From: Phycisphaerae bacterium
GTDB lineage: Bacteria > Planctomycetota > Phycisphaerae > Phycisphaerales > SM1A02
DNA length: 64,000 nt
Assembly: GCA_002702575.1 (NCBI GenBank)
Contig: PAAJ01000006.1
Location: 1-64,000, forward strand
Reading direction: 5' to 3'
The translations under genes and the position numbers were made by a program. Position 1 is the stretch's first letter. Every line of letters begins with the position of its first letter. The notes under the pieces were generated by a model, which saw only the letters and a program-made list of their open reading frames with translations, was not told the origin of the DNA and searched no databases. This document shows, piece by piece, positions 26,738 through 40,634 of this stretch.

Positions 26738-26875
26738 TCAAGTGCGATTCTCGATGAACTCCGCTTCACGGGGAACCCATGAGCCGCCAAGTCGTATTGG
26801 ATGATCAACTCGAAAAGGCCGTACTGGTGCAGACGTCTGCCCACGGCATTTTCCAGCCTGAGAGGGCATATTGAA

Positions 26876-28732
26876 ATGACTCAATTGACGAAAACAGGGA
26901 TTGCCTGCGGTTTCCTGATGACAACAGCTTCCTTGGCTCAAGCAGGTGTGACCAGCCTGACGGTCGAATCAACCAACAGCTGGAGCTCGGGGCACAGTGG
27001 CCAGATTTCGTTCGTGAATTCCGGAGTGGATCCGATCGAAGGCTGGAGTTTCTGGATCGAAGATGGCCCAGCCATCACATCTGCGTGGAATTGCGAGTGG
27101 TCAGCTGATGGCAACCGTGACTCGTTCCTCGATGCGGGTTGGAATGGCATCATCGATCCAGGTGAAACCGTCACCATTGGATACGAAGCCACCGGTTTGC
27201 TGGAGCAGACCATCACGGGCGCCGAATTCAACGGCATGCCGGTCGAGATCAACTATGCCGGCGCTGATGAGGGCGACGGTGATGATGACGGCAGCGATGG
27301 TGGAAATGATGGCGACGATGGCGGAAACGACGGAGGCGGCGGTGATGACACCGGCGATGGTTCGGGAACCACACCGGGATGCGATGGTGATACCGACGGC
27401 AACGGAGCCGTCGATGTCAGCGACATCCTGGCTGTTCTTGATGGCTGGGGCCCCTGCCCGGGCTGTGGCGCAGATGTCGATGGAAACGATGTCGTCGATG
27501 TGGATGACATGCTCGCCGTACTGGGCGCCTGGGGCGATTGCCCTTCAACGGGACCGACCAACAAGAGAATCGTCGGGTACTACATCGAATGGGGCATCTA
27601 TGGACGAGATTACCAGCCCGCAGACATGCCACTCGACAAGATCACTCACGTCAATTACGCATTCGCCAACATCGGTGATGATGGTCGAATCGCGATCGGC
27701 GATCCCTATGCTGCCATCGAACGTTCCTATCCGGGTGATACATGGGATCAGCCCTATCGAGGAACCTACAACCAGCTGAACAACGTTCTCAAGCCTCAGT
27801 ACCCCCACCTCAAGACTCTGATTTCAGTCGGTGGGTGGACCTGGTCCGGCAAGTTCTCGGATGTCGCGCAGACTGCGCAATCACGACAGATCTTCGCGGA
27901 ATCATGTGTCGAGTTCATCCGGACGTACAACTTCGACGGTGTCGATATCGACTGGGAGTACCCCGTGTGCTGTGGTCTCTCGAGCAACACGTATCGTCCT
28001 GAAGATCGTGAGAACTACACCTTGCTCGCGGAGGAGTTGCGCAATCAACTTGACGCTGCCGGCCAGGAAGATGGTCGGGAGTATCTCCTGACGATCGCCG
28101 CCGCAGGTGGTATCGACAAGCTGGAGAACTACGAACTGGCGGAGCTGGCTTCGCATCTCGATTGGGTCAACACCATGTCCTATGACTTCATGGGATCCTG
28201 GGACCTCTCGATCACGGGCCACCACAGCGGCTTGTATGCGAATCCAGACAATCCTTCACCAAATCAGAATGTCCGAAACTTCTACAACGCTCATCACTCG
28301 GTTCTTCCCTGGCTGGAAGCCGGAGTGGAACCGGACAAGATCGTCATGGGGGTCCCCTTCTACGGTCGTGCCTGGGGTGGCGTGAATCCAACCAACAACG
28401 GGCTGTTCCAGGCAGGCACGCTGGTGCCACCGGGGACCTGGGACGACTGGTCCAGCGGTGCCACGGGGATGAACGACTATACGGAAATCGCTTCATTCAT
28501 TGCATCAGGCAACTACGTCCGCCTGTGGGACGACACGGCCAAGGTGCCTTGGGCCTGGAGCCCCGACAATCACGGCGGCCACTTCATCTCCTATGACGAT
28601 GCCGAGTCGATCGAACTCAAGATGGACTACATCAAGGACAACAGCCTCGGTGGCGTCATGTTCTGGGAGGTGACCGCCGACCGGGAAGCCGAGCTTCTGG
28701 ACGTGATGTACCAGTCCCTCGAGGTTGAATAG
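26876..28732 (+). CDS. secreted GH18 chitinase with CBM-like and dockerin-like modules
   Basis: 618 aa. Signal peptide about 1-23 (ASLAQA). A CBM2-like module follows (about 24-130, with conserved Trp residues), then an Asp/Gly-rich linker (about 130-168). Next is a dockerin-like pair with two calcium-loop repeats and WG ends (GDTDGNGAVDVSDIL and VDGNDVVDVDDML, about 169-223). The GH18 domain runs about 231-615, with SVGG at 317-320 and the catalytic D-G-V-D-I-D-W-E at 354-361 (E361 the acid). It would degrade chitin outside the cell. The start has GAGAGGG 9 nt upstream. A strong terminator follows. Confidence 0.93.
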   Translation: MTQLTKTGIACGFLMTTASLAQAGVTSLTVESTNSWSSGHSGQISFVNSGVDPIEGWSFWIEDGPAITSAWNCEWSADGNRDSFLDAGWNGIIDPGETVTIGYEATGLLEQTITGAEFNGMPVEINYAGADEGDGDDDGSDGGNDGDDGGNDGGGGDDTGDGSGTTPGCDGDTDGNGAVDVSDILAVLDGWGPCPGCGADVDGNDVVDVDDMLAVLGAWGDCPSTGPTNKRIVGYYIEWGIYGRDYQPADMPLDKITHVNYAFANIGDDGRIAIGDPYAAIERSYPGDTWDQPYRGTYNQLNNVLKPQYPHLKTLISVGGWTWSGKFSDVAQTAQSRQIFAESCVEFIRTYNFDGVDIDWEYPVCCGLSSNTYRPEDRENYTLLAEELRNQLDAAGQEDGREYLLTIAAAGGIDKLENYELAELASHLDWVNTMSYDFMGSWDLSITGHHSGLYANPDNPSPNQNVRNFYNAHHSVLPWLEAGVEPDKIVMGVPFYGRAWGGVNPTNNGLFQAGTLVPPGTWDDWSSGATGMNDYTEIASFIASGNYVRLWDDTAKVPWAWSPDNHGGHFISYDDAESIELKMDYIKDNSLGGVMFWEVTADREAELLDVMYQSLEVE

Positions 28733-28806: not shown

Positions 28807-28924
28807 GTTGGAAATGACATGCCCAGAATGGCCTCAATACCCGATATCATCCCACGGTCATGCACATGGATCCTGCAGTCAGCTCAATGTCAGCGCTTTC
28901 CGGCCAGTGGCCCGGAGGGTCGTC

Positions 28925-30652
28925 GTGAGCAAGATCCCCGTGACGGTCATTCTTCCCGTCAAGAATGATGCCCAGACGGTGGCCAACAGCCTGGCACGTC
29001 TCCAGCGATTCCAGAAGATCGTCGTGGTCGATTCTGACAGCAAGGACGGCACCGATGAGGTCGCCGCGGCCCATGGAGCCGAATACGTCGTCTTCAACTG
29101 GAATGGCAAGCCACCGAAGAAACGGACGTGGTATCTCAACAACCATGAGATCGAGACGGATTGGGTTCTGTTTCTGGATGCCGATGAGCTTGTCAACGAT
29201 GCGTTCTGCGATGAGGTGGAACGGGCCACGGCATCCGGCAAGTACGTCGGATTCTGGATGTCATTCCACAACTGGTTCATGGAGAAGTGGCTCCAGCATG
29301 GAGATCCCTTCTCAAAGCTCGCCTTGTTTCGACCAGATGCGGGTCGCTATGAACAGGTAGCGGATTCGAGATGGACCAACATCGATGTGGAAGTCCATGA
29401 ACATCCGATTCTGGACGGCGCTGTTGGTCGCATTCAAGCACCGGCTGCACACGATGAACGTCGAGGCTTGGATTCCTACATCGGCAAGCACAACAACTAC
29501 TCGACGTGGGAAGCCCATCGATTTGTTGCGATTAAAACGGAAGGCGACGGCATCTGGGATTCACTCACACGTCGTCAGAAGTTCAAGTACAAACATGTCA
29601 ACAAGTGGTGGTTTGCCACGACCTACTTCGTCCATGCCTTCATTCTCAAGAAGGGTTTTCTCGATGGACGAGCAGGATTCGTGTTCGCTTCATTGAAGCG
29701 CGAATACTACAGCCACATACGACTCAAGATTCTCGAGCTCCAGAACAGGACTTCGGAAACAGCGGCCGCGACGACGGTTGTTTCATCCGGCTCCGAACAG
29801 GCTTCGAAGCAGGACGTCCCGGTCACGGTCGTCGTGACAGCCGATGACGGTGACGGACTGGACGCATGCCTCGAGCGATTGAAGCGTTTCCAGGAAGTCG
29901 TCGTGCTCGATTCCGGCAGGGATGCCCGGATCACGGATGTTGCTCGGGAACATGGCGCAACCTGCGTGACATTCGAATCCAATCCGGAAGCTTCGAATCC
30001 GGGCAATTGGTTCCTTGAGAATCACGATATCCGCAATGATTGGGTTCTTTTTCTTGGATCCGACGACCTTGCGACTGATGCCTTCTGTGATGATGTCAGA
30101 CGGGCCGCAACTTCCGGAAAGCATGTCGGATACTGGATCCGATTCCATGAATGGTTCCAGGGTTCTTTGCTTCGGCATGGTGAGCCGACCACCAGACTCT
30201 CGCTCTTCCGTCATGATGCAGGTCGATTCGAGGAGATGGCCGATGGCGCCTCCGGAGCGGCCTGCCATGAACGCCCCGTGCTCAAGGGGACCATCGGCCA
30301 GGTCAGCTCACCCATGCAGCACATGAATTGCGGCGGCCTCGAACAACTGATCAAGAAGCACAACGAGTCATCGACTTGGGAGGCCCGTCGATATCTGGCT
30401 GCCGGGACCGAGCATGATTCATCCCGGATGTCGCTTTCTCCACACCAGCAATACAAGGGTGGTCATGTCGACACGTGGTGGTTCAAGTGGATTCATTTCC
30501 TGACCGCCTTTGTGCTGAAACTCGGCTTTCTCGATGGACGTGCAGGATTCATCTTCGCCTCCTTGAGAAGGCAGTATCACGGTCATATTCGCCTGAAAAT
30601 GAACGAAAGCCGTGATTCAAAGAAGAAGGCGTCGGACACGCTTCTTCCCTGA
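28925..30652 (+). CDS. tandem GT2 glycosyltransferase, second domain degenerate
   Basis: 575 aa from the GTG at 28925 (GGAGGG 5 nt upstream). Two copies of the same domain lie head to tail, about 1-275 and 298-565. Copy 1 has VTVILPVKND, VVDSDSKDGTDE, KKRTWYLNN and the metal site LDADE (84-88), like WaaE/KdtX-type lipid-A core glucosyltransferases. Copy 2 keeps the frame (VVVLDS, NWFLENHDIRNDWVLFL, FLDGRAGFIFASLRR) but has LGSDD (377-381) and lacks the KKR residues, so it has probably lost activity. Membrane association near WWFATTYFVHAF is possible. The substrate is unknown. Confidence 0.82.
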   Translation: MSKIPVTVILPVKNDAQTVANSLARLQRFQKIVVVDSDSKDGTDEVAAAHGAEYVVFNWNGKPPKKRTWYLNNHEIETDWVLFLDADELVNDAFCDEVERATASGKYVGFWMSFHNWFMEKWLQHGDPFSKLALFRPDAGRYEQVADSRWTNIDVEVHEHPILDGAVGRIQAPAAHDERRGLDSYIGKHNNYSTWEAHRFVAIKTEGDGIWDSLTRRQKFKYKHVNKWWFATTYFVHAFILKKGFLDGRAGFVFASLKREYYSHIRLKILELQNRTSETAAATTVVSSGSEQASKQDVPVTVVVTADDGDGLDACLERLKRFQEVVVLDSGRDARITDVAREHGATCVTFESNPEASNPGNWFLENHDIRNDWVLFLGSDDLATDAFCDDVRRAATSGKHVGYWIRFHEWFQGSLLRHGEPTTRLSLFRHDAGRFEEMADGASGAACHERPVLKGTIGQVSSPMQHMNCGGLEQLIKKHNESSTWEARRYLAAGTEHDSSRMSLSPHQQYKGGHVDTWWFKWIHFLTAFVLKLGFLDGRAGFIFASLRRQYHGHIRLKMNESRDSKKKASDTLLP

Positions 30653-30669
30653 CAATCGGAACGGCACCC

Positions 30670-31809
30670 ATGACACATTACGAGGTCATTGTGATCGGAG
30701 TTGGCTGCATGGGGTCTGCAGCCTGCGCTTCTCTTGCCAGGCGGGGTGTCCGCGTTCTGGGACTTGAGCAGCACACGATTCCCACGGATCTCGGATCCAG
30801 TGGACACCAGTCGCGGATCTTCAGGTTGGCGTACTACGAGCATCCTGACTACGTACCGCTTCTGAAGCAGGCCTACTCGGGCTGGCAGCAACTTCAGATC
30901 GAAGCAGACATGCCGGTCTTTGCGGAAACGGGTGGCTTGTACATCGGACAAGCTGGTGGAGAATTCGTGGAGCACTCACAGGCTTCAGCGATTCGCCATG
31001 GTCTTCAATACGAACGACTCGACAAGCATGAGATCGAATCGCGTTATCCCGTCCTTGAATTGCCAGATGACTTTGTCGGGCTCTATGAGCAACCGGCGGG
31101 CATGATCTTCCCGGAGCGTGCCATCCAGGCGCAGGCCGATCTCGCAAGGCGTCATGGCGCACACCTTCTGGAGGGAGTTCGAGTTCACTCCTGGGAACAG
31201 ACGCCGTCACAATGCCATGTCGAGACCGATTCGGGCAGGTTCACGAGTGATCGACTGGTGATCTGTTCCGGAGGATGGACGCCCGAGCTCTGCCCCGGCA
31301 TTCCACTGAGTGTCTCGAGGCAGATCCTGGGCTGGATGCAGACACCCGAACCCGATCTCGTCTCCATGGAGCATTTCACGACATGGGCCATTGAACTCGA
31401 AGATCAATCCCTGCTGTATGGCTTTCCTCTGTGTGATGGGCTCGATGGACCAGCGGGTTTCAAGATGGCACGCCATCTTCCAGGCGCATCATGCGATCCG
31501 AGAACCCTTGTTCGCGAAGCCCAACCGGGTGATGAGGATGAATTTCTCTCATACGCCAGACGTTTTCTTCCAAGGGCTGTGGGACCCGTCACAGACATGA
31601 AGGTCTGTCTCTATACCAATACACCGGACAAACACTTCATCATCGACCGCCATCCTCGACATGACCGGGTGTTCCTGGCAACCGGATTCAGTGGCCACGG
31701 ATTCAAGTTCCAGCCGATCATCGGGGAGATTCTGGCTGATCTTGCCGTGCATGGTTCCACGGATCAGCCCATCGGCTTTCTTGGCCTTGATCGTTTCGAA
31801 CGTTCGTGA
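30670..31809 (+). CDS. sarcosine oxidase / N-methyltryptophan oxidase-like flavoenzyme
   Basis: 379 aa. The dinucleotide-binding loop is VIGVGCMGSAACASL and the early LGSSGHQSRIFRLAYYEHPDY matches monomeric sarcosine oxidase. C313 in KVCLYTNTPD is the residue that binds FAD covalently, and K265 (GFKMARH) sits where the oxygen-activating lysine is found in the family. It would oxidise an N-methyl amino acid, releasing formaldehyde and hydrogen peroxide. It lies 17 bp after the tandem GT2 gene and abuts the end of arnD on the other strand. The substrate cannot be read from sequence. Confidence 0.85.
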   Translation: MTHYEVIVIGVGCMGSAACASLARRGVRVLGLEQHTIPTDLGSSGHQSRIFRLAYYEHPDYVPLLKQAYSGWQQLQIEADMPVFAETGGLYIGQAGGEFVEHSQASAIRHGLQYERLDKHEIESRYPVLELPDDFVGLYEQPAGMIFPERAIQAQADLARRHGAHLLEGVRVHSWEQTPSQCHVETDSGRFTSDRLVICSGGWTPELCPGIPLSVSRQILGWMQTPEPDLVSMEHFTTWAIELEDQSLLYGFPLCDGLDGPAGFKMARHLPGASCDPRTLVREAQPGDEDEFLSYARRFLPRAVGPVTDMKVCLYTNTPDKHFIIDRHPRHDRVFLATGFSGHGFKFQPIIGEILADLAVHGSTDQPIGFLGLDRFERS

Positions 31810-32712
31810 TCAAGCCGGCGTGTCGACGACGGCAACCCACCCTTCGCGACCATCGATGGAATCGGCCTTCAGCCCGTACTCCGGAAGCATCGATGACGTA
31901 TCGACAAGATCACCCAGCGGGACGATGTCCCGCCCTGTGTCCATGACCTGATCGAGAAAGTCCTCGAACATGGATGCCTTGGACATGCCTTCGGCCTCCG
32001 CGTGGATGGTGAGAACCTCATCGTGATCCGGCCTCATCGACTTGAGCATGAAAGCGTTGTAGTCGCCGTCATCGATCTCGCCAGCCACTTCATCCCATGT
32101 CGGCAGGGAGACCGGAACCTGCGGCTGTGAGAGCAGAATGCCATCCACGACAGGTCGGAAGACACCGCAGGAACCGCGACAGTCACTGTTGTAGCGAAAG
32201 CCGAAGGTCGACTTGACTCGAAGAACTTCATCCGTACAGCGCCAGCCTGCCGATGCGGAACAGGTCGGTTCGCAACCAATGATCTCGGCGAGCAGTTCGT
32301 AGGCGGACTGGGTCTCACCAGCCAATGCCCGGTAGCCCATGCGATCGACAGCGACTTGCCATCGATGGTGGTCCCAGGCATGTACGCCGATCTCGTGTCC
32401 AGCTTCCGAAGCCGCTCGAATGATCGGCGCCAGCCCTTTGCCGATCTGCGGTCCGGGCCAGAGCGTGCCTTTCAGGAGAATGTCCCACCCGTAGAGGCTG
32501 CCTGCACGGGTTCGAAGCATCTTTCGGAGAAACGTCGGCCTCAGGAGGCGAAAGAGATGACGGCCCATGTTGTCCGGACCCATCGTGAAGAAGAACGTCG
32601 CCTTCAGACCACGCGCCGCAAGGATGTCACACAGCTTCGGGACACCATGCTTTGTGCCTCGATAGGTATCGACATCGATGCGAAGTCCCAATCGCATGGG
32701 CGAACCACTCAC
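31810..32712 (-). CDS. arnD: undecaprenyl-phosphate 4-deoxy-4-formamido-L-arabinose deformylase
   Basis: 300 aa. A close match to ArnD along its length: [76 protein letters not shown] and LPTWDEV. It is a polysaccharide-deacetylase-fold enzyme that removes the formyl group from the undecaprenyl-linked sugar. The listed start is GTG at 32712, overlapping the arnA stop as GTGA; an ATG at 32697 ([11 protein letters not shown]) matches known ArnD starts equally well. It is the last gene of the arnBCAD operon. Confidence 0.93.
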
Positions 32713-34718
32713 CGGCTCGCAGCCGTCTCCGCTTCACGCGATTCGATGCCGTGCTGCGCTGCCCAATCCCTGAGGAACCAGTCAAGCGTCCTTGCAACGG
32801 AATCACGTGTCTTCACCTGAGGACGCCATCCGACATATCGAAGCGCATTTCGGATACTTGGACGACGATGCTGGACGTCCTCGTAACCCTTGCCGTAATA
32901 GGAACGACTTTCGATCTCACGGAAGCCCGCGAATGGCGGGAAGTGTGATCGCAATGGATGGGCTTCGAATTCCTCGACAAGCATCTCCGCAAGTTCACGG
33001 ATGCTGGCTTCATTGTCTGGATTGCCGATGTTCACGATCTTGCCGTCACATCGGTTTTCCTCGTTCTCGATGATCCTGAAGAGACAGTCGACGCCTTCAT
33101 CCACCTCGGTGAAGCAGCGCTTCTGCTCTCCGCCGTCCACCAGCAGAATCGGTGTGCCTTCGACGAGATTGAGGATCAGCTGGGTGATGGCTCGAGACGA
33201 ACCGATTCGTGCCGAATCGAGGGTGTCCAGTCTCGGGCCGATCCAGTTGAACGGCCTGAACAGTGTGAACTTCAGATTCTCGTGCTGTCCGTACGCCCAG
33301 ATCACACGGTCCAGCAACTGCTTCGAGCAGGAGTAGATCCACCGCTGACGATTGATCGGGCCGGTCACCAGAGTCGATGTGTCCTCATCGAAGTAGTCAT
33401 CCTTGCACATGCCGTACACCTCGGACGTGGACGGGAAGATGATGCGACGACCGTAGCGGACACAATCACGGACGATCTGAAGGTTCTCCTCGAAGTCCAG
33501 CTGGAAGACTCTCAGTGGATTCCGGGTGTATTCGATCGGCGTGGCGATCGCGACCAGTGGAAGGATGACATCGCATTTTCGAATGTGATACTCGATCCAT
33601 TCCCGGTTGATGGAAATATCGCCTTCGACGAAATGAAAATCAGGATGCTCGACGATGCCGCCGAGATTGTCGGATCGCAGATCCATTCCATGGACTTCGT
33701 AGCGACCGGTGGACAGAAGCCGTTCGCAGAGATGGCTTCCGATGAAACCGTTCACGCCAAGAACAAGAACGGATGTCCGGCGCCCGGGCTTGCGGCGTTC
33801 GAGTTCGGAGAACCGCATGCCTGGAACGACGTTGAGGTCCTTGGCGACCTGATCACCAGCTGCATAGACGCCGTCATCGGTCTGAGCGAAATCGATTCGG
33901 ATTGATTCGGCGCCACAGGAAACGATCAGTGGGTCCGTGCTGATAACGGTACCTGGAATGTCGTGGGATTCGGTCGATGGCGTGGTCTTCCAGATTCGAA
34001 CACGACGATCACCGACCTGACCGATCGCCCCGGGGTAGGGGCGGGTCACTGCTCGAACAAGATTGTGCACACCCTCGGCGGACATCGACCAGTCGATCCG
34101 GCCGTCCTCGGGTGTTCGCCGTGGATAGACCGTGGCTTCGGATTCGTCCTGCGGGTGGCGTTCAGCCTTGCCGTCACGAATCAGGGGCAGCGTCTCATCC
34201 AGCAGACCGCCTGCGGCTTCCCGAACCTTGCCCATGAGTGTCATGGCCGTGTCCTCAGGATCGATGGCGATTCTTTGCTGGCTGACGATGTCGCCGGCAT
34301 CCGGCTTGGTCGTCATGTGATGCAGCGTGACCCCTGTCTCGCTTTCGCCATTCACCAGAACCCAGTTGACCGGCGCACGGCCGCGGTAGGCGGGCAGAAG
34401 CGAACCATGCAGGTTGTAGCAACCTGATGGGAAGAGGTCGATGACTTCCTGCTTCACAAGTTTTCTGTAATAGAAGGAGAACAGGACGTCTGCACCCATC
34501 GAACGGATTCGCTCGATCCAGATGGGATGATTCAGATCATCCGGTGCATGAACCGGAACACCGGCTTCTGCGGCCCACTCGGCAACGGATCCGAACCAGA
34601 TTGCTTCAGCTGGATCATCCCTGTGGGTGAAGACAGCAACAATCTCGATACCGGCGCGACGCAGGGCTTCCAGCCCGGCGATTCCTACATCGTGGTAAGC
34701 AAGTACGACTGCCTTCAT
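32709..34718 (-). CDS. arnA: bifunctional UDP-4-amino-L-arabinose formyltransferase / UDP-glucuronate decarboxylase
   Basis: 669 aa, close to the 660 of E. coli ArnA. Residues 1-305 are the 10-formyl-THF-dependent transferase with N102, H104 and D140 in place ([18 protein letters not shown]). Residues about 315-669 are the NAD-dependent decarboxylase with [11 protein letters not shown]432-E433 (FPSTSEVYG) and [16 protein letters not shown] near the end. Both activities should be intact. The ATG overlaps the arnC stop as ATGA. Confidence 0.95.
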
Positions 34719-35716
34719 GAATGAACGAGCCTCCGCTCCGTGTTTTCCAAAATGGAAATTTCCGTGGTGCCTGCCAGAACCGTATGGTCATGGACTGAAT
34801 CAACAAAATACCGTGGCCGACCGCGAACGTCATTGTGAACCCTGGAGAGATACTCCCCAAGCAGCCCCATCGCGACGAACTGCACACCCATCAGGAAGAA
34901 CAGGACGGCAAAGAGTGTGAAGACTCCGGAGACCGCCCATTCGGGACCCATGACCAGTCTCAGGATGAGCAACACGCCGCCGAAGGCCACGCTGAGACAG
35001 GAAATGATAACACCGACCCACGTCAACAGTCTGAGTGGGAAAGTGGTCATGCAGGTCAGCAGATCAAACTGCAGATTGATCAGTCGCATGAAGCTGTATT
35101 TGGAATGGCCGGCGGATCGCTCCGCATGGGACACCTCGATTTCGGCCGTTCGCTTGGCGAACGAGTTCGCCAGAACCGGAATGAACGTGCTTCTCTCACG
35201 ACACTGCAGCATGGCGTTGACGATCGGCCTTCGGTAGGCGCGGAGCATGCAGCCGTAATCGTGCATCATCACACCCGTGGTCTTCTTCACCATGAAATTG
35301 ATCATGCCTGAAGCAAGCCGGCGAAAGAGGCTGTCCTGGCGATCCATGCGAATGGTGCCGACAACATCATTGCCACGGTCGATTTCCTCGAGCAGCTTCG
35401 GAATCTCTTCGGGAGGATTCTGCAGATCGGCATCAAGCGTCACGATGATGTCGCCCTTGGCATGCGAGAAACCACAGATGATCGCGTTGTGCTGACCGTA
35501 GTTTCGATTCAGAATGATCGCCTTGACATGGTCGGGATTCGAAGCAGCCGCCTCGACCAGTCGATCGGAAGATCCGTCACGACTACCGTCATCCACGAGG
35601 ACCAGCTCCCACTCGCGATCAAGGCGGTCCCCCACCTCTCGACAGCGGTTCACCAGCTCATCGAGATTGTCCAGCTCGTTGTAGACGGGAATGACGATTG
35701 AAACACTGCTGTTCAT
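34715..35716 (-). CDS. arnC: undecaprenyl-phosphate 4-deoxy-4-formamido-L-arabinose transferase
   Basis: 333 aa. The GT2 domain has [30 protein letters not shown] and [32 protein letters not shown] and two C-terminal membrane segments (about 235-258 and 268-292) match ArnC. It moves the formylated aminoarabinose from UDP to undecaprenyl phosphate at the inner membrane. It is flanked by ATGA overlaps with arnB and arnA. A DpmA/GtrB-type polyprenyl transferase would look alike, but the neighbours settle it. Confidence 0.93.
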
Positions 35717-36909
35717 GCCGGCGCTCCCTGCTCCTGGGCAACATTGCAGACCGAACGAATGCCGGTCAGTACACGTTCGATATCGTCATCAGTCATGTCC
35801 GGGAACAGCGGGATCGAACAGATGCGCTCGCTGTTCCATTCCGTTTCCGGAAGGCCGCCCGAGTCCATGCCCTGATCTCGATACCAACGATGCGTATGAG
35901 CCGCTCTGAAGTGAAGGCCCGTTCCGATTCCGATGTCCTTCAAGGCTGCCATGAACTGGTCACGGTCCAGGCCGGCCAGTTCAGGGAGAACACGCACGAT
36001 GAACAGATGCCAGGCATGCCGATGATTCCAGGAGGGCAGGCCGAGCGGTTCGATGCCATCGACCTCCCGCAGACCTTCGGTGTATCGATTCGCGATCTCG
36101 GCGCGTCGCTCGATGAACGTATCCAGTCTCTTCAACTGGGAAACACCCAGAACCGCATTCATGTCGGGCATGTTGTACTTGAATCCAGGTGACTGCACTT
36201 CGACCTGTGGCGAACGGCCCTGCTGATTGCGATCCCACGCTTCCGCGGCCAGGCCGTGAAAACGCATTCGTCGAATTTCGGCGGCCAGTTCGACATCGTC
36301 GGTGACGAAGACACCCCCCTCACCGGTCGTCACGTTCTTGATCGGATGCAGGGAGAAGATGGCATGACCACTGCTGCCGATCTCTTGATTCGAATACCGG
36401 GTACCGATGGCATGCGCCGCATCTTCGATCACTGGAATACCGGCCGCATCGGCGACCGATCGAATCCCATCCAGATCACATGGAACACCGGCATAGTGCA
36501 CGGGAATGATCGCCTTGGTTCGCTTCGTGATGGCGGCGGCGATCGATTCCGCGGAGACCAGCAACGTCTCTCGATCCACATCCACGAAGACCGGCTTCGC
36601 GCCCAGCAGGCTGATGATGTTCGGTGTCGAGACCCAGGTCATGGAGGGCGTGATCACCTCGTCTCCCGGCCCGATACCCATCGCCAGAAGAACCAGATGC
36701 ATCGCCGCCGTCCCGGAGGTCACCGCCACCGCGGCCTGGCCACCTGTTCGATCGCAGACGGCTTGTTCAAGCTCGGCACAGGCTGGACCGGTGGTGATCC
36801 ATCCGCTTGTGAGCGTTCGGGTCACCGCCTCGACGTCCGCCTCGTTGATGGAGGGGCGACAGAAGGGCAGGAATTCGCCTGCCGTGGGCTGGTTCTTCGA
36901 TCGTGTCAT
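35713..36909 (-). CDS. arnB: UDP-4-amino-4-deoxy-L-arabinose aminotransferase
   Basis: 398 aa. A DegT/DnrJ/EryC1/StrS-type PLP enzyme with [55 protein letters not shown] and the PLP lysine K191 in [14 protein letters not shown]. Late matches such as [14 protein letters not shown] and [18 protein letters not shown] are specific to ArnB. It converts UDP-4-keto-pentose to UDP-L-Ara4N. The ATG overlaps the stop of the upstream membrane protein gene as ATGA. Confidence 0.95.
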
Positions 36910-38123
36910 GACTGACGCATCGTACCCGAATCGGCCTGCAAATCCCCTTCTGAACCCGGTTTGACGGCTTCTGTGGCCCCCTGATGGCGCTCTGGGTGCA
37001 GGTGAATGTCACCTCGGAGGAGCATCAAGGACCCGATGAGGCTCCAGGACAGTTCGTATCCCCGGTAGATCAGCAGCATCCCGATCACCTGATTTGGAGT
37101 GGCGAAATCGGGCATGGCCAACAGCAGGATGCCCAGGCCCTCCATCACACCAATCCCCTGCCATGACATCGGAACCGCTGCCGCCAGGAAAAGGATCGGC
37201 ATCACGGTCAGGATGACGGCGGGATCATGAGTGATCCCAAGTGAAACACCCGCGAGCGTGGCTGCCGACGCCAGGAGAATCTGAACGACGACTGAAATCA
37301 GCGTGGCCAAGGTGACGGATCGCTTGTGAACCCCATAGGCATGTGCCGCATCCTCGATCCGTGCGATCAGCCCGCCACCGAACAGCCTCTGCAGACGTTC
37401 CAAACCAAGCCATGTTCGCAGACCCGCGTTGAAGTACATCCAGGCGAAGATCGCAATGACCGCGATCACGCCCCAGGCCCACAGTCCGATCGTGAATGCG
37501 ACGGATCCACTGGTCGCCATGACACCGGCCACTGCCGCAAGCACGATGAGCCCAAGCAGGCCCGTGATGCGGTCGAAGACGACGCTCATGACCGCAATGA
37601 CGCGATCATCGCTTTGTTTGGCGACATACCAGGCCTTGACGACGTCACCGCCTTCCGTTCCCGGAAGGCAGAAGTTGAAGAAGGCACCGACAAAAACGAG
37701 TCGCAGGGTTCGCCACCAGCTGACGGCCAGGCCACGGCATCTCATCAGAATCCACCACCGAGTGGCCTGCAGCGGATAGACCCCGGCAAGCGGGAGCAGT
37801 CCGAGCAGCAGCAGCCCGAGACTGGCCTGACCAAGGAGTGTGAAGATACCCGGCCGGTACCAGGCCACCGGAACGTCGGCAACCGAGACCGGGGCGCCGA
37901 ACAGAAGACAACTGATCACGTCAGGATCTTCTTGGGTCGGCAAGACGCCAGTGACCTCATAGACTCTCGGTTGTTCCAGGACGACGCCATCCAGTCCGGG
38001 CTCACCGGCCGGGATTTGGATGGAATCACTCCAGTCGATCGCCCAGAGAACGATTGCCACACCGGCAATGATCAGAAACAGACGGAGTACTCGAAGGATA
38101 TTCCTCGACATCAGCAGAGGCAT
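36906..38123 (-). CDS. LPG-synthase-TM-type integral membrane protein (candidate lipid-carrier translocase)
   Basis: 405 aa with about eight membrane segments. Its first cytoplasmic-facing helix is preceded by a short extracytoplasmic stretch (about 35-90). The core FVGAFFNFCLPGTEGGDVVKAWY and SVVFDRITGLLGL identifies the lysylphosphatidylglycerol synthase TM / AglD C-terminal family. It heads the arn operon and is joined to arnB by a 4-base overlap. Since arnE, arnF and arnT are absent here, it may flip the undecaprenyl-linked sugar (inference). Members of this family also occur in other glycolipid loci, so a different role is possible. Confidence 0.8.
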   Translation of the reverse strand: MPLLMSRNILRVLRLFLIIAGVAIVLWAIDWSDSIQIPAGEPGLDGVVLEQPRVYEVTGVLPTQEDPDVISCLLFGAPVSVADVPVAWYRPGIFTLLGQASLGLLLLGLLPLAGVYPLQATRWWILMRCRGLAVSWWRTLRLVFVGAFFNFCLPGTEGGDVVKAWYVAKQSDDRVIAVMSVVFDRITGLLGLIVLAAVAGVMATSGSVAFTIGLWAWGVIAVIAIFAWMYFNAGLRTWLGLERLQRLFGGGLIARIEDAAHAYGVHKRSVTLATLISVVVQILLASAATLAGVSLGITHDPAVILTVMPILFLAAAVPMSWQGIGVMEGLGILLLAMPDFATPNQVIGMLLIYRGYELSWSLIGSLMLLRGDIHLHPERHQGATEAVKPGSEGDLQADSGTMRQS

Positions 38124-38195: not shown

Positions 38196-40502
38196 TCAGG
38201 GTGCTGGATCGACATCCGCCTTGCGGGTTTCCGCATCCATCATCCGTTCGATCTCCTGATACAGATAGTCGAAGGCTGCCAGATCTTCGGCAGGAACCGT
38301 GGCACGCCTGCGGTCGAGATCCATGAGAAGCATCGGAAGCTGATCCGGCGGGAACTGCTTCAGCTGATCCAATGCCATCTGAACCTTGGCCACCTCTTCG
38401 GGTGTGAGGCTGGACAGTTCGACGGGCTCACGCTCCGGACGGACCTCCTCGGAACCATCCGATTCCCAGACCTCGATACCTTCCAGTGCCAGGTTGCCCT
38501 TGGAACGAATCTGGGCATTGGACATGGCGACGGTCTCACCGATGGCCTCCGCACGCCCACCCAGATGTTTCGCAAGGAACTCCTCGGTAATCGCATTGAA
38601 TGCCATCATGTTTTCAGGACGATTCATTCCATGGCCTTCATCCGGGAACACGATGTAGGTCACCGGCAGATCTCGAGACTGCATGGCCTCGACAATCTGA
38701 TCGCTTTCGGAAATCTTCACACGAGGATCGTTGGCACCCTGCGCGATGATGAGTGGTCGCTGGATACGGTCGACATGCATCAGCGGGGAGATGCTGTCCA
38801 GATACTCCGGATCATCCAGGCTTCCCACCCTGGTTTCAAACATGCTGATGATCGGCTCCCAGTAAGGAGGAATCGTCTTCATGAGCGTGCCGACGTGTGA
38901 GGGGCCGACGATATCGACGCCGGCAGCGAACAGCTCAGGATCTCGTGTCAGACCGGCAAGCGTTGCGTAGCCGCCATATGAGCCGCCCATGATGGCGATC
39001 TGATCCTTCTGGGCGATGTCGTTGTCGATTGCCCATTGGGTCGCATCGACGAGATCGTCCTGCATCTTTCCATACCATTCGCGGTTGCCGGCATTCGTGA
39101 ATGCCTTGCCGAAGCCCGTGGAACCACGGAAGTTCGGACTCAGTACGGCATATCCACGATTGGCCAGCCACTGATGCATCGGGTTGTAGCCCCACCGATC
39201 ACGTGCCCATGGACCGCCATGCACCAGCAGCACCATCGGCGTGGCCTCATCCGCCCCGAGAGGTCTCGTGAGATAGGAAGGCATGATCAAACCGTCTCGG
39301 GTCTTGATTTCCACCGGCTGCATGCTGGCAAGTTCATAGTCCTCAAGCTCAGGGCGATGTGAAAAGAGATACGTGCCCTTCTGATCATCACGATTCCAGA
39401 TCCAGAAGCGAACCGGGCCGTCATCCTGCATGAACCTGAGGGTCCATGTTCGATCATCCAGAGTGCGACTCGCAATGGACATGTCCCCGTCATCGATCTT
39501 GCGAATCGTCTCCAGCTCAGCGGCCATCGCCGGATCAAGCGGAATCCATTCCGATCGAAGGTATTCGACCATCGCGACTTCAGGTTCATGGGTGGTCGGG
39601 TTCATGACCACACCGCTCACGTTTGCCGTTTCCGACTCATGAATCACCCGTGGGGCATCTGCGCCACCGGGGACCGCGGAGATCTCGACCAGAGCAGCCT
39701 TGTCACGGCCACGGGAATCCAACGCATAGATCTTGTCACCTGCAGCATTGAAACCCATGGGCTGGGTAGTCAGGGCGTCTTCCATGTCGACCTTCAAGAA
39801 GTCGTTCCATTCCCCGTCATGTTTCATTTGGTAGAGCGCACCACCATCGGAGGTCATCTCGACTCGTGCTCGTGGGTTCCAGTCATGGTCGAACATGTAG
39901 GCCGCGTATTCACCTTCATTTTCCTGAAGCAGAGTACGCTCGCCGGTTCTCGTGTTGATGATGTAGTAGTCGTGAACTCTGGGATCTCGGTCGTTGATGG
40001 CGACCAGAATCTCGTCTGGACGTTCGTGGGAACGCTCTGCGACACGGGCATTGACATTGTCGAATGGCGTGAGGTCCTTGACGGCGAGGTCATGGATGCC
40101 GACGGCGTAGACATGCGTGTTTTCATCGCCTTTGTCATCGCGACCGAAGAGGATCTGGTCGTTGTTCCATGACCAGGAGAAGCCGCCCAATGGACGGTCG
40201 GAAAACTCGGTGATCGGCCTTGGCGCATCCTCGCCAACGGGCGTGACCCAGATGTTGAGAACACCCTCATGCGGTGCCAGGTAGGCAATGTGCTTTCCAT
40301 CCGGACTCATCTGCACACTGGCACGTTCAGGATTTCCGAACAGCACTTCCCGTGGAATCAGCGGCTGATCATGGGCCTCAACAGTGGTTTCCTTCGCTGC
40401 AGCAGGCTTTGAATCCGCGTGATGATCGAATCCATGGACGGTTGCCGAGAGTGTCAGCAATGCTGCAACAGGAAGACGGGTGAATGCTGGTTTGTGAAAC
40501 AC
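38196..40502 (-). CDS. secreted S9 prolyl oligopeptidase family peptidase
   Basis: 768 aa from the GTG at 40502, with GAGGAG 6 nt upstream; the frame extends to 40574 without such a site. A signal peptide (FTRLPVAALLTLSATVHG) is followed by a beta-propeller (about 45-405) and an alpha/beta hydrolase domain with S508 (GGSYGGYA), D592 (GANDPRV) and H624 (DEGHG). It would cleave peptides outside the cytoplasm, with acylaminoacyl-peptidase or dipeptidyl-peptidase-like specificity. About 90 extra C-terminal residues are rich in Glu and Pro. Confidence 0.92.
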   Translation of the reverse strand: MFHKPAFTRLPVAALLTLSATVHGFDHHADSKPAAAKETTVEAHDQPLIPREVLFGNPERASVQMSPDGKHIAYLAPHEGVLNIWVTPVGEDAPRPITEFSDRPLGGFSWSWNNDQILFGRDDKGDENTHVYAVGIHDLAVKDLTPFDNVNARVAERSHERPDEILVAINDRDPRVHDYYIINTRTGERTLLQENEGEYAAYMFDHDWNPRARVEMTSDGGALYQMKHDGEWNDFLKVDMEDALTTQPMGFNAAGDKIYALDSRGRDKAALVEISAVPGGADAPRVIHESETANVSGVVMNPTTHEPEVAMVEYLRSEWIPLDPAMAAELETIRKIDDGDMSIASRTLDDRTWTLRFMQDDGPVRFWIWNRDDQKGTYLFSHRPELEDYELASMQPVEIKTRDGLIMPSYLTRPLGADEATPMVLLVHGGPWARDRWGYNPMHQWLANRGYAVLSPNFRGSTGFGKAFTNAGNREWYGKMQDDLVDATQWAIDNDIAQKDQIAIMGGSYGGYATLAGLTRDPELFAAGVDIVGPSHVGTLMKTIPPYWEPIISMFETRVGSLDDPEYLDSISPLMHVDRIQRPLIIAQGANDPRVKISESDQIVEAMQSRDLPVTYIVFPDEGHGMNRPENMMAFNAITEEFLAKHLGGRAEAIGETVAMSNAQIRSKGNLALEGIEVWESDGSEEVRPEREPVELSSLTPEEVAKVQMALDQLKQFPPDQLPMLLMDLDRRRATVPAEDLAAFDYLYQEIERMMDAETRKADVDPAP

Positions 40503-40634
40503 GATGAACTCCTCTTGATTCGAGCTGAACAGTATGACAGATTCAAGACGAAACGACAGCCTCGAACGGTCCATGACGGATCTTCCAGGAAGCCACGTTG
40601 CAATGCATGCGTGGAATCGCTCAGGGCACGCTGA

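Follow-up and report, generated by a model that had tools for sequence, protein, structure and literature searches.

A variant arn operon in a marine planctomycete lineage, headed by the gene of an MprF-type membrane protein and candidate flippase

The small multidrug resistance (SMR) type proteins ArnE and ArnF are described, in passages of PMC9574504, as the carrier that takes undecaprenyl-phosphate-linked 4-amino-4-deoxy-L-arabinose (L-Ara4N) across the membrane. Which protein would do so in a bacterium that possesses the L-Ara4N enzymes, and in which arnE and arnF are not found, is the question raised by a locus in the draft genome of a Phycisphaerae bacterium (assembly GCA_002702575.1). 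The stretch analysed, called the window below, comprises the first 64,000 nucleotides of contig PAAJ01000006.1. At 31810-38123 five genes of its minus strand, flp, arnB, arnC, arnA and arnD, follow each other with a 4-base overlap at every junction (Table 1).

Compared with arnBCADTEF of Escherichia coli K-12, the order of arnB, arnC, arnA and arnD on one strand is the same, ArnA is likewise fused and the catalytic residues are kept. The differences are a UPF0104/MprF-type gene in first position, the lack of linkage of arnT, which lies elsewhere in the genome, and the failure to find arnE or arnF at the level of our control matches. The locus is a case of known L-Ara4N chemistry in an unexpected lineage and in a variant architecture. 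We propose, with a probability of roughly 0.55, that it is a variant of the arn operon in which Flp, and not ArnE/ArnF, flips undecaprenyl-phosphate-L-Ara4N. As judged from sequence, the L-Ara4N chemistry of the operon is likely and lipid A is a plausible acceptor; the role of Flp is inferred and can be tested, and polymyxin resistance finds support neither way.

Table 1. Genes of the operon and its two flanks in the window
Gene	Position	Strand	Length	Product and remarks
flp	38123-36906	minus	405 aa	UPF0104 / LPG_synthase_TM (PF03706) membrane protein, candidate undecaprenyl-phosphate-L-Ara4N flippase
arnB	36909-35713	minus	398 aa	UDP-Ara4O aminotransferase, pyridoxal phosphate (PLP) lysine K191
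arnC	35716-34715	minus	333 aa	undecaprenyl-phosphate Ara4FN transferase
arnA	34718-32709	minus	669 aa	fused UDP-Ara4N formyltransferase / UDP-GlcA (UDP-glucuronic acid) oxidative decarboxylase
arnD	32712-31810	minus	300 aa	Ara4FN-phosphoundecaprenol deformylase, GTG start
S9 prolyl oligopeptidase-like gene	38196-40574	minus		Pfam; left flank of the operon site
FAD-dependent oxidoreductase (DAO) gene	30670-31809	plus		Pfam PF01266; right flank, convergent with arnD

Enzymes of the operon and the pathway in the genome

Identity to the E. coli K-12 proteins is 60.7% over 659 aligned residues for ArnA, 56.1% over 385 for ArnB, 59.3% over 317 for ArnC and 46.9% over 292 for ArnD. Among the 15 ArnA positions compared (E. 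coli numbering), 14 are identical in the alignment; ArnA keeps N102, H104, D140, S433-E434 (here S432-E433), R619 (R618) and Y463 (Y462), and at position 526 the lysine of E. coli is a leucine. Lysine K188 of E. coli ArnB aligns with K191. ArnA passes the NCBIfam model NF005998 with 1085.5 bits (cut-off 777), its residues 1-648 lying on profile positions 1-649, and its best match in the PDB is ArnA 1z7e (E 7.5e-284, over 1-651). The best families of ArnB, ArnC and ArnD are NF008658, NF007986 and NF011923, each by more than 200 bits, and the closest solved relatives of these three proteins are Arn enzymes as well, over most of their length: ArnB 1mdo (E 9.1e-149), ArnC 9bhc (E 1.6e-126) and ArnD 8t0j (E 5.8e-84).

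An earlier sequence-only reading of this DNA had claimed the order arnB-arnC-arnA-arnD with 4-base overlaps, the conservation of ArnA N102, H104, D140 and the serine-glutamate pair and of ArnB K191, and the presence, in a planctomycete-like genome, of genes for the L-Ara4N pathway. The order and overlaps are confirmed from the open reading frames (ORFs) and the residues by the alignment with E. coli; the third claim is supported too, the nearest named records being metagenome-assembled genomes of Phycisphaerales/Phycisphaerae with ArnA 81-92% identical. That reading assigned four genes to 31810-38123. The four arn genes stand; the fifth gene inside the span, flp, had gone unnamed, and the place of arnT outside the operon in this genus had been missed. 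Its term "complete" fits the cytoplasmic steps, not arnT, arnE and arnF, none of which occurs in the surroundings of the operon that were examined.

The same reading proposed to look for arnT, ugd and lipid A genes elsewhere in the genome, a 3.17 Mb draft of 32 contigs that is rated 96.08% complete and 8.2% contaminated, and candidates of all three kinds were found. The ArnT homologue (557 aa) is encoded on contig C23; its sole NCBIfam match is ArnT NF009784 and its sole PDB match ArnT 5ezm. Four residues (tyrosine, lysine, arginine and glutamate) are required for ArnT activity according to passages of PMC5377068. Mapped through the E. coli motifs, all four are kept as Y33, K59, R243 and E483; they are also kept in 16 of 17 planctomycete ArnT proteins checked. 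Candidates of the UDP-sugar dehydrogenase family could supply UDP-glucuronic acid, and the lipid A genes lpxA, lpxC, lpxD and kdtA are present, one cluster holding lpxC fused to fabZ (L083 8323-9711, G000:C13), lpxD, lpxA and bamA. LpxC was found in 34/34 chosen planctomycete genomes and kdtA in 19/19 searched. With arnT, the dehydrogenase candidates and these four lipid A genes, a route to L-Ara4N-modified lipid A appears to be encoded.

By orthology to the characterised Arn enzymes, the C-terminal domain of ArnA would oxidise and decarboxylate UDP-glucuronic acid, ArnB would aminate the resulting 4-keto sugar and the N-terminal domain of ArnA would formylate it. ArnC is predicted to move the formylated sugar onto undecaprenyl phosphate, and ArnD to take off the formyl group on the cytoplasmic side. 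Family, fold, position and co-occurrence suggest that Flp, standing in for the ArnE/ArnF that are missing, may then bring undecaprenyl-phosphate-L-Ara4N to the outer leaflet. ArnT would finally transfer L-Ara4N to lipid A, and the negative charge of the cell surface would thereby fall.

Flp as a candidate flippase and the search for ArnE/ArnF

Flp belongs to the family of UPF0104 proteins and of the MprF flippase domain (COG0392, PF03706), scoring 94 bits against PF03706 (gathering cut-off 33.4) and 58.6 bits against TIGR00374 (cut-off 43.2). In a fold comparison, made by re-scoring Foldseek's own match list, MprF entries took ranks 1-6 with Z 10.0-11.9 over 198-221 residues and a root mean square deviation of 3.6-5.7, the next row having Z 5.6; with helical models a Z below roughly 13 may reflect no more than a common arrangement, which counts against this match. 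A PDB sequence search with the Flp alignment gave nothing meaningful (best E 0.29). Nine Flp orthologues have charged residues of the membrane domain in common, for example E157, D160, K163, D184, R185, E328 and R354. Unlike MprF, Flp is without a synthase domain, and an additional segment separates its first helix from the PF03706 region. This segment (window about 38033-37810) is poorly conserved, variable in length and predicted to contain strands; comparison of residues from about 31 to 105 with SH3-like barrels and similar small folds gave Z 5.6 or less.

In passages of PMC5898192, UPF0104 proteins are homologues of the flippase domain of MprF, and flipping of lipids and glycans is predicted for them. 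Another stand-alone member, GpgF of Pseudomonas aeruginosa, is encoded in gpgSDF together with a glycosyltransferase and a deacetylase, in a pathway for a cationic glycolipid; lipid formation persists, though reduced, in a mutant of the UPF0104 gene, whose product is a flippase candidate (passages of PMC12713373). The flipping of glycolipids by UPF0104 proteins is so far mainly a prediction, as far as these two sources go. Flp differs from MprF and GpgF in its placement within an undecaprenyl-phosphate sugar pathway. With ArnE/ArnF it would share the transport step; those SMR proteins have about 110-130 residues, and Flp has 405.

Occurrence of Flp was followed in 23 chosen genomes, 17 of them ArnA-positive, with the protein of the window as query. 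One match per genome was found in 6/6 genomes of the same genus and in G746, and a weak one (5e-15) in the ArnA-positive G085; there was none in the other 15, which comprise all six ArnA-negative genomes and nine ArnA-positive ones. Within another genus, the ArnA-positive G746 has both Flp and ArnT, and G348 has neither. At the level of loci, flp lies directly upstream of arnB in 9/26 of the same family: in 5/6 of the genus, the contig of the sixth (L036) starting inside arnC so that the upstream side is not visible, and in 4/20 outside the genus.

Profiles of ArnE/ArnF matched 11/12 fused proteobacterial loci, and the twelfth stretch stops just past arnT. Most of these loci had gone into building the profiles, a partial circularity of the controls that takes a little from our confidence in the main proposal. 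Among 49 planctomycete stretches they matched one, the split-ArnA locus L078, and nothing at the locus of the window. A joint ArnE/ArnF profile, run against the whole draft genome, reached 5.4e-4 at best, below control grade: it gave 5e-38, 1.2e-35 and 7.8e-36 in three proteobacterial genomes contained in the profile, and 9.6e-27 in G129, a genome outside it. Its best match in 19 planctomycete genomes with fused ArnA was 1.2e-7. Two SMR-like matches in the draft genome (G000:C10:3477-3794 and G000:C27:17559-17876) lie on different contigs and agree in score and in ORF length. This points to a duplication within the assembly and may bear on the contamination value.

Distribution, gene order and history

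ArnA exceeded the cut-off in 15/392 genomes drawn across the phylum, one of which (G345) really has two adjacent genes, formyltransferase and decarboxylase being neighbouring ORFs at L075. Fused ArnA is present in 50/151 genomes of the same family searched and in 6/6 of the same genus; among genomes taken as Pseudomonadota, ArnA was over the cut-off in 16/299. In the set of 23 genomes, ArnT matches below 1e-80, a line drawn after the list was seen, occur in 16 of the 17 ArnA-positive genomes, the seventeenth (G122) giving 1.6e-35, and in none of the six ArnA-negative family members, where the best was 5e-30 in G368 and the other five had no match. Gain and loss thus seem to affect the arn genes together.

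All 33 fused-ArnA planctomycete loci in which the four genes are visible (of 36) have the order B-C-A-D, with arnB 2.5 kb apart from the rest at L066 and arnD 3.2 kb apart at L071. At L076 (G374), arnD matches in two pieces. In other Planctomycetota and in Pseudomonadota, ArnA can be split into two genes; the order is then B-C-A1-A2-D and the same chemistry is expected, with an ArnT-like gene between A2 and D at L077 and L078. The split forms make a separate clade (100/100), and their decarboxylase is about 51-65% identical to that of the window. The order is kept in 6/6 visible of 7 planctomycete and in 5/5 visible of 8 proteobacterial split loci. Since fused and distant split loci thus share it, B-C-A-D is no pointer to transfer from enterobacteria; the sequence-only reading had taken this order as a hint of either transfer or deep conservation, and as evidence the order is not usable.

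In the family outside the genus, arnT follows arnD in 19/20 loci, the twentieth (L153) stopping after arnA; in the genus it does so in 0/6. All six genus genomes have arnT elsewhere, the other five proteins being 62-87% identical to that of the window genome. Sister genera hold flp-arnBCAD-arnT at apparently the same site, from which we conclude that the present genus probably lost arnT from the operon to another place in the genome. The flanks are as follows. An S9 peptidase gene stands directly upstream of flp in the window (72 bp away, on the same strand), L035, L038, L155 and L156; in L151, L037 and L139 one lies upstream at a distance of 1.4 to 3.7 kb. The DAO oxidoreductase gene is convergent in the window, L035, L037 and L139 and lies in opposite direction after arnT in L151 and L152; it was not seen in the stretches of L036, L038 and L156. 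L151 thus has the S9 peptidase to the left and oxidoreductase, GT2 and GH18 genes to the right; L152 shows the right flank only, L155 the left only, and L156 has the left flank and, to the right, a weak GT2 match.

Two trees, covering two phyla, were computed. In the decarboxylase-domain tree (71 rows), fused and split ArnA separate at 100/100, deep fused branches are weak and the proteobacterial fused group has 38/94 only; duplicate genus rows (L122-L125) were left out, and the tree is without the family loci L129, L130, L132, L135, L137 and L138 and the phylum loci L031-L034. The tree of joined ArnB, ArnC, ArnA and ArnD (52 rows, 17 of them flagged for odd letter composition) left out L078, L165 and L169, which have no ArnB match, and L155 with a partial ArnB, and is also without L036, L068, L143, L144, L145, L148, L170 and L171. 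In it, 12 proteobacterial fused operons form one clade (100/100) which contains 0/29 planctomycete fused rows, and 20 rows of the window's family form another (100/99), in which the operon of the window groups with those of its own genus. G355, from another family, is sister to this family (98/99), and G278, from the same order, branches elsewhere; strict vertical descent within the phylum is not supported by these placements.

The 29 planctomycete fused rows are not one clade in the best tree, and one clade is not rejected (approximately unbiased (AU) test, p 0.424). Because of this result and of the sampling of two phyla, we claim no direction of transfer. Transfer from enterobacteria, one of the readings offered earlier, finds no backing, as the trees do not nest planctomycete sequences in proteobacterial ones. 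A wider history, in which a stand-alone MprF-type (UPF0104) flippase replaced ArnE/ArnF in this lineage of marine planctomycetes, and in which the operon with fused ArnA, known from polymyxin resistance of enterobacteria, diversified in Planctomycetota either earlier than its spread in Gammaproteobacteria or apart from it, is put forward tentatively and with more doubt than confidence.

Alternative explanations, significance and flanking genes

A number of findings weigh against a flippase role of Flp in a complete route to lipid A. The Flp model has a mean predicted local distance difference test (pLDDT) score of only 60.4, and a Foldseek search with it gave no match below E 0.001 (best E 0.05). 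Nine of the 17 ArnA-positive genomes are without Flp, G085 having the weak match only, and no Flp precedes arnB in 16/20 family loci outside the genus (L143, L149 and L150 among them have less than 0.5 kb of sequence before arnB) or in 10/10 fused planctomycete loci outside the family. As most fused-ArnA planctomycete loci lack ArnE/ArnF and Flp alike, those loci must rely on some other carrier, which could act in the window genome too; with a draft of 32 contigs, moreover, the absence of ArnE/ArnF is not absolute. ArnB, ArnC and ArnD stay below the curated cut-offs of their best families (589.5 against 631, 477.8 against 529 and 374.8 against 382 bits), and we describe them as Arn-type orthologues, by sequence, rather than file them as NCBIfam equivalogs. 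ArnT has 31.9% identity to E. coli ArnT and 418.1 bits where its family cut-off is 567.

Part of this evidence would suit a normal L-Ara4N route to lipid A in which Flp moves another lipid, such as a phospholipid with a sugar or amino acid attached, or is a passenger, and another transporter, perhaps a distant SMR/EamA protein, does the flipping. At least 15 of the 16 family loci with arnBCAD and no Flp have arnT next, and weak SMR-like matches exist in relatives as well as in the window genome. We regard this as somewhat improbable, since flp heads the operon with a 4-base overlap to arnB, all strong Flp matches in the 23 genomes searched fall in ArnA-positive ones, and in 11 Flp-less loci examined no recurring flippase-like neighbour was seen. 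The hydrophobic ORFs tested in such loci were considered as glycolipid flippases and rejected, being an amino acid permease (L148) and signal peptidase II (L146, L147). The distance of ArnT and its score, together with the position of arnT outside the operon, next to a GT4 glycosyltransferase gene, could instead mean that the sugar goes through the ArnT homologue to a core sugar, a surface polysaccharide or a glycoprotein; in Burkholderia, L-Ara4N is found on a core sugar too, according to passages of PMC5377068. An acceptor other than lipid A is nevertheless unlikely, as the four residues required for activity are kept, ArnT is the sole curated family and PDB match, and LpxC is present throughout the planctomycete genomes chosen.

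Two further explanations concern the origin of the whole stretch. Recent acquisition from Gammaproteobacteria would agree with the shared gene order, the fused ArnA and its identity to the E. coli protein; it is made highly improbable by the proteobacterial clade free of planctomycete rows, by the occurrence of fused ArnA throughout the genus and in a third of the family genomes searched, and by flanking genes common to sister genera. G+C runs between 0.545 and 0.608 across the window; its maximum falls at 36-38 kb, and apart from this the operon shows no jump. Trees, distribution and synteny alike thus fail to support recent transfer from Proteobacteria. That foreign DNA entered a planctomycete bin by contamination or mis-binning might be thought of in view of the 8.2% rating, and its probability is negligible: the five other genus genomes carry fused ArnA, and in L035, L037 and L038 flp-arnBCAD is entire and its flanks are shared (L036 starts inside arnC). 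We reject it, as independent assemblies of the genus carry the same operon.

If Flp indeed stands in for ArnE/ArnF in an otherwise ordinary arn operon, decoration of the outer membrane with aminoarabinose would be an established trait of a planctomycete family and not a speciality of Proteobacteria. It would also give a direct prediction on planctomycete lipid A, checkable by mass spectrometry, and a naturally paired setting in which to ask whether undecaprenyl-phosphate sugars are flipped by UPF0104 proteins. Among the literature matches listed, which cover few subscription journals, there was no paper on L-Ara4N in planctomycetes. Planctomycetota correlate with arnA reads in groundwater according to passages of PMC11356026; if the present reading holds, some of the "arnA" counted in resistome surveys of the environment may stem from planctomycete housekeeping genes.

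A scan for promoters and terminators found sites no more frequent than in shuffled sequence. Beyond the oxidoreductase gene, a plus-strand glycosyltransferase gene (28808-30652) has a translation that reads like a GT2-type unit present twice in tandem within a single frame, its DxD-like stretch being altered in the second copy; in the relatives L037, L139, L151 and L152, the GT2 match near the arn site spans only about 300 residues. The plus-strand gene at 26801-28732, which lies beside the arn site in relatives too, encodes a GH18 glycosidase with an acidic linker and a cellulose-binding domain of the CBM_2 family.

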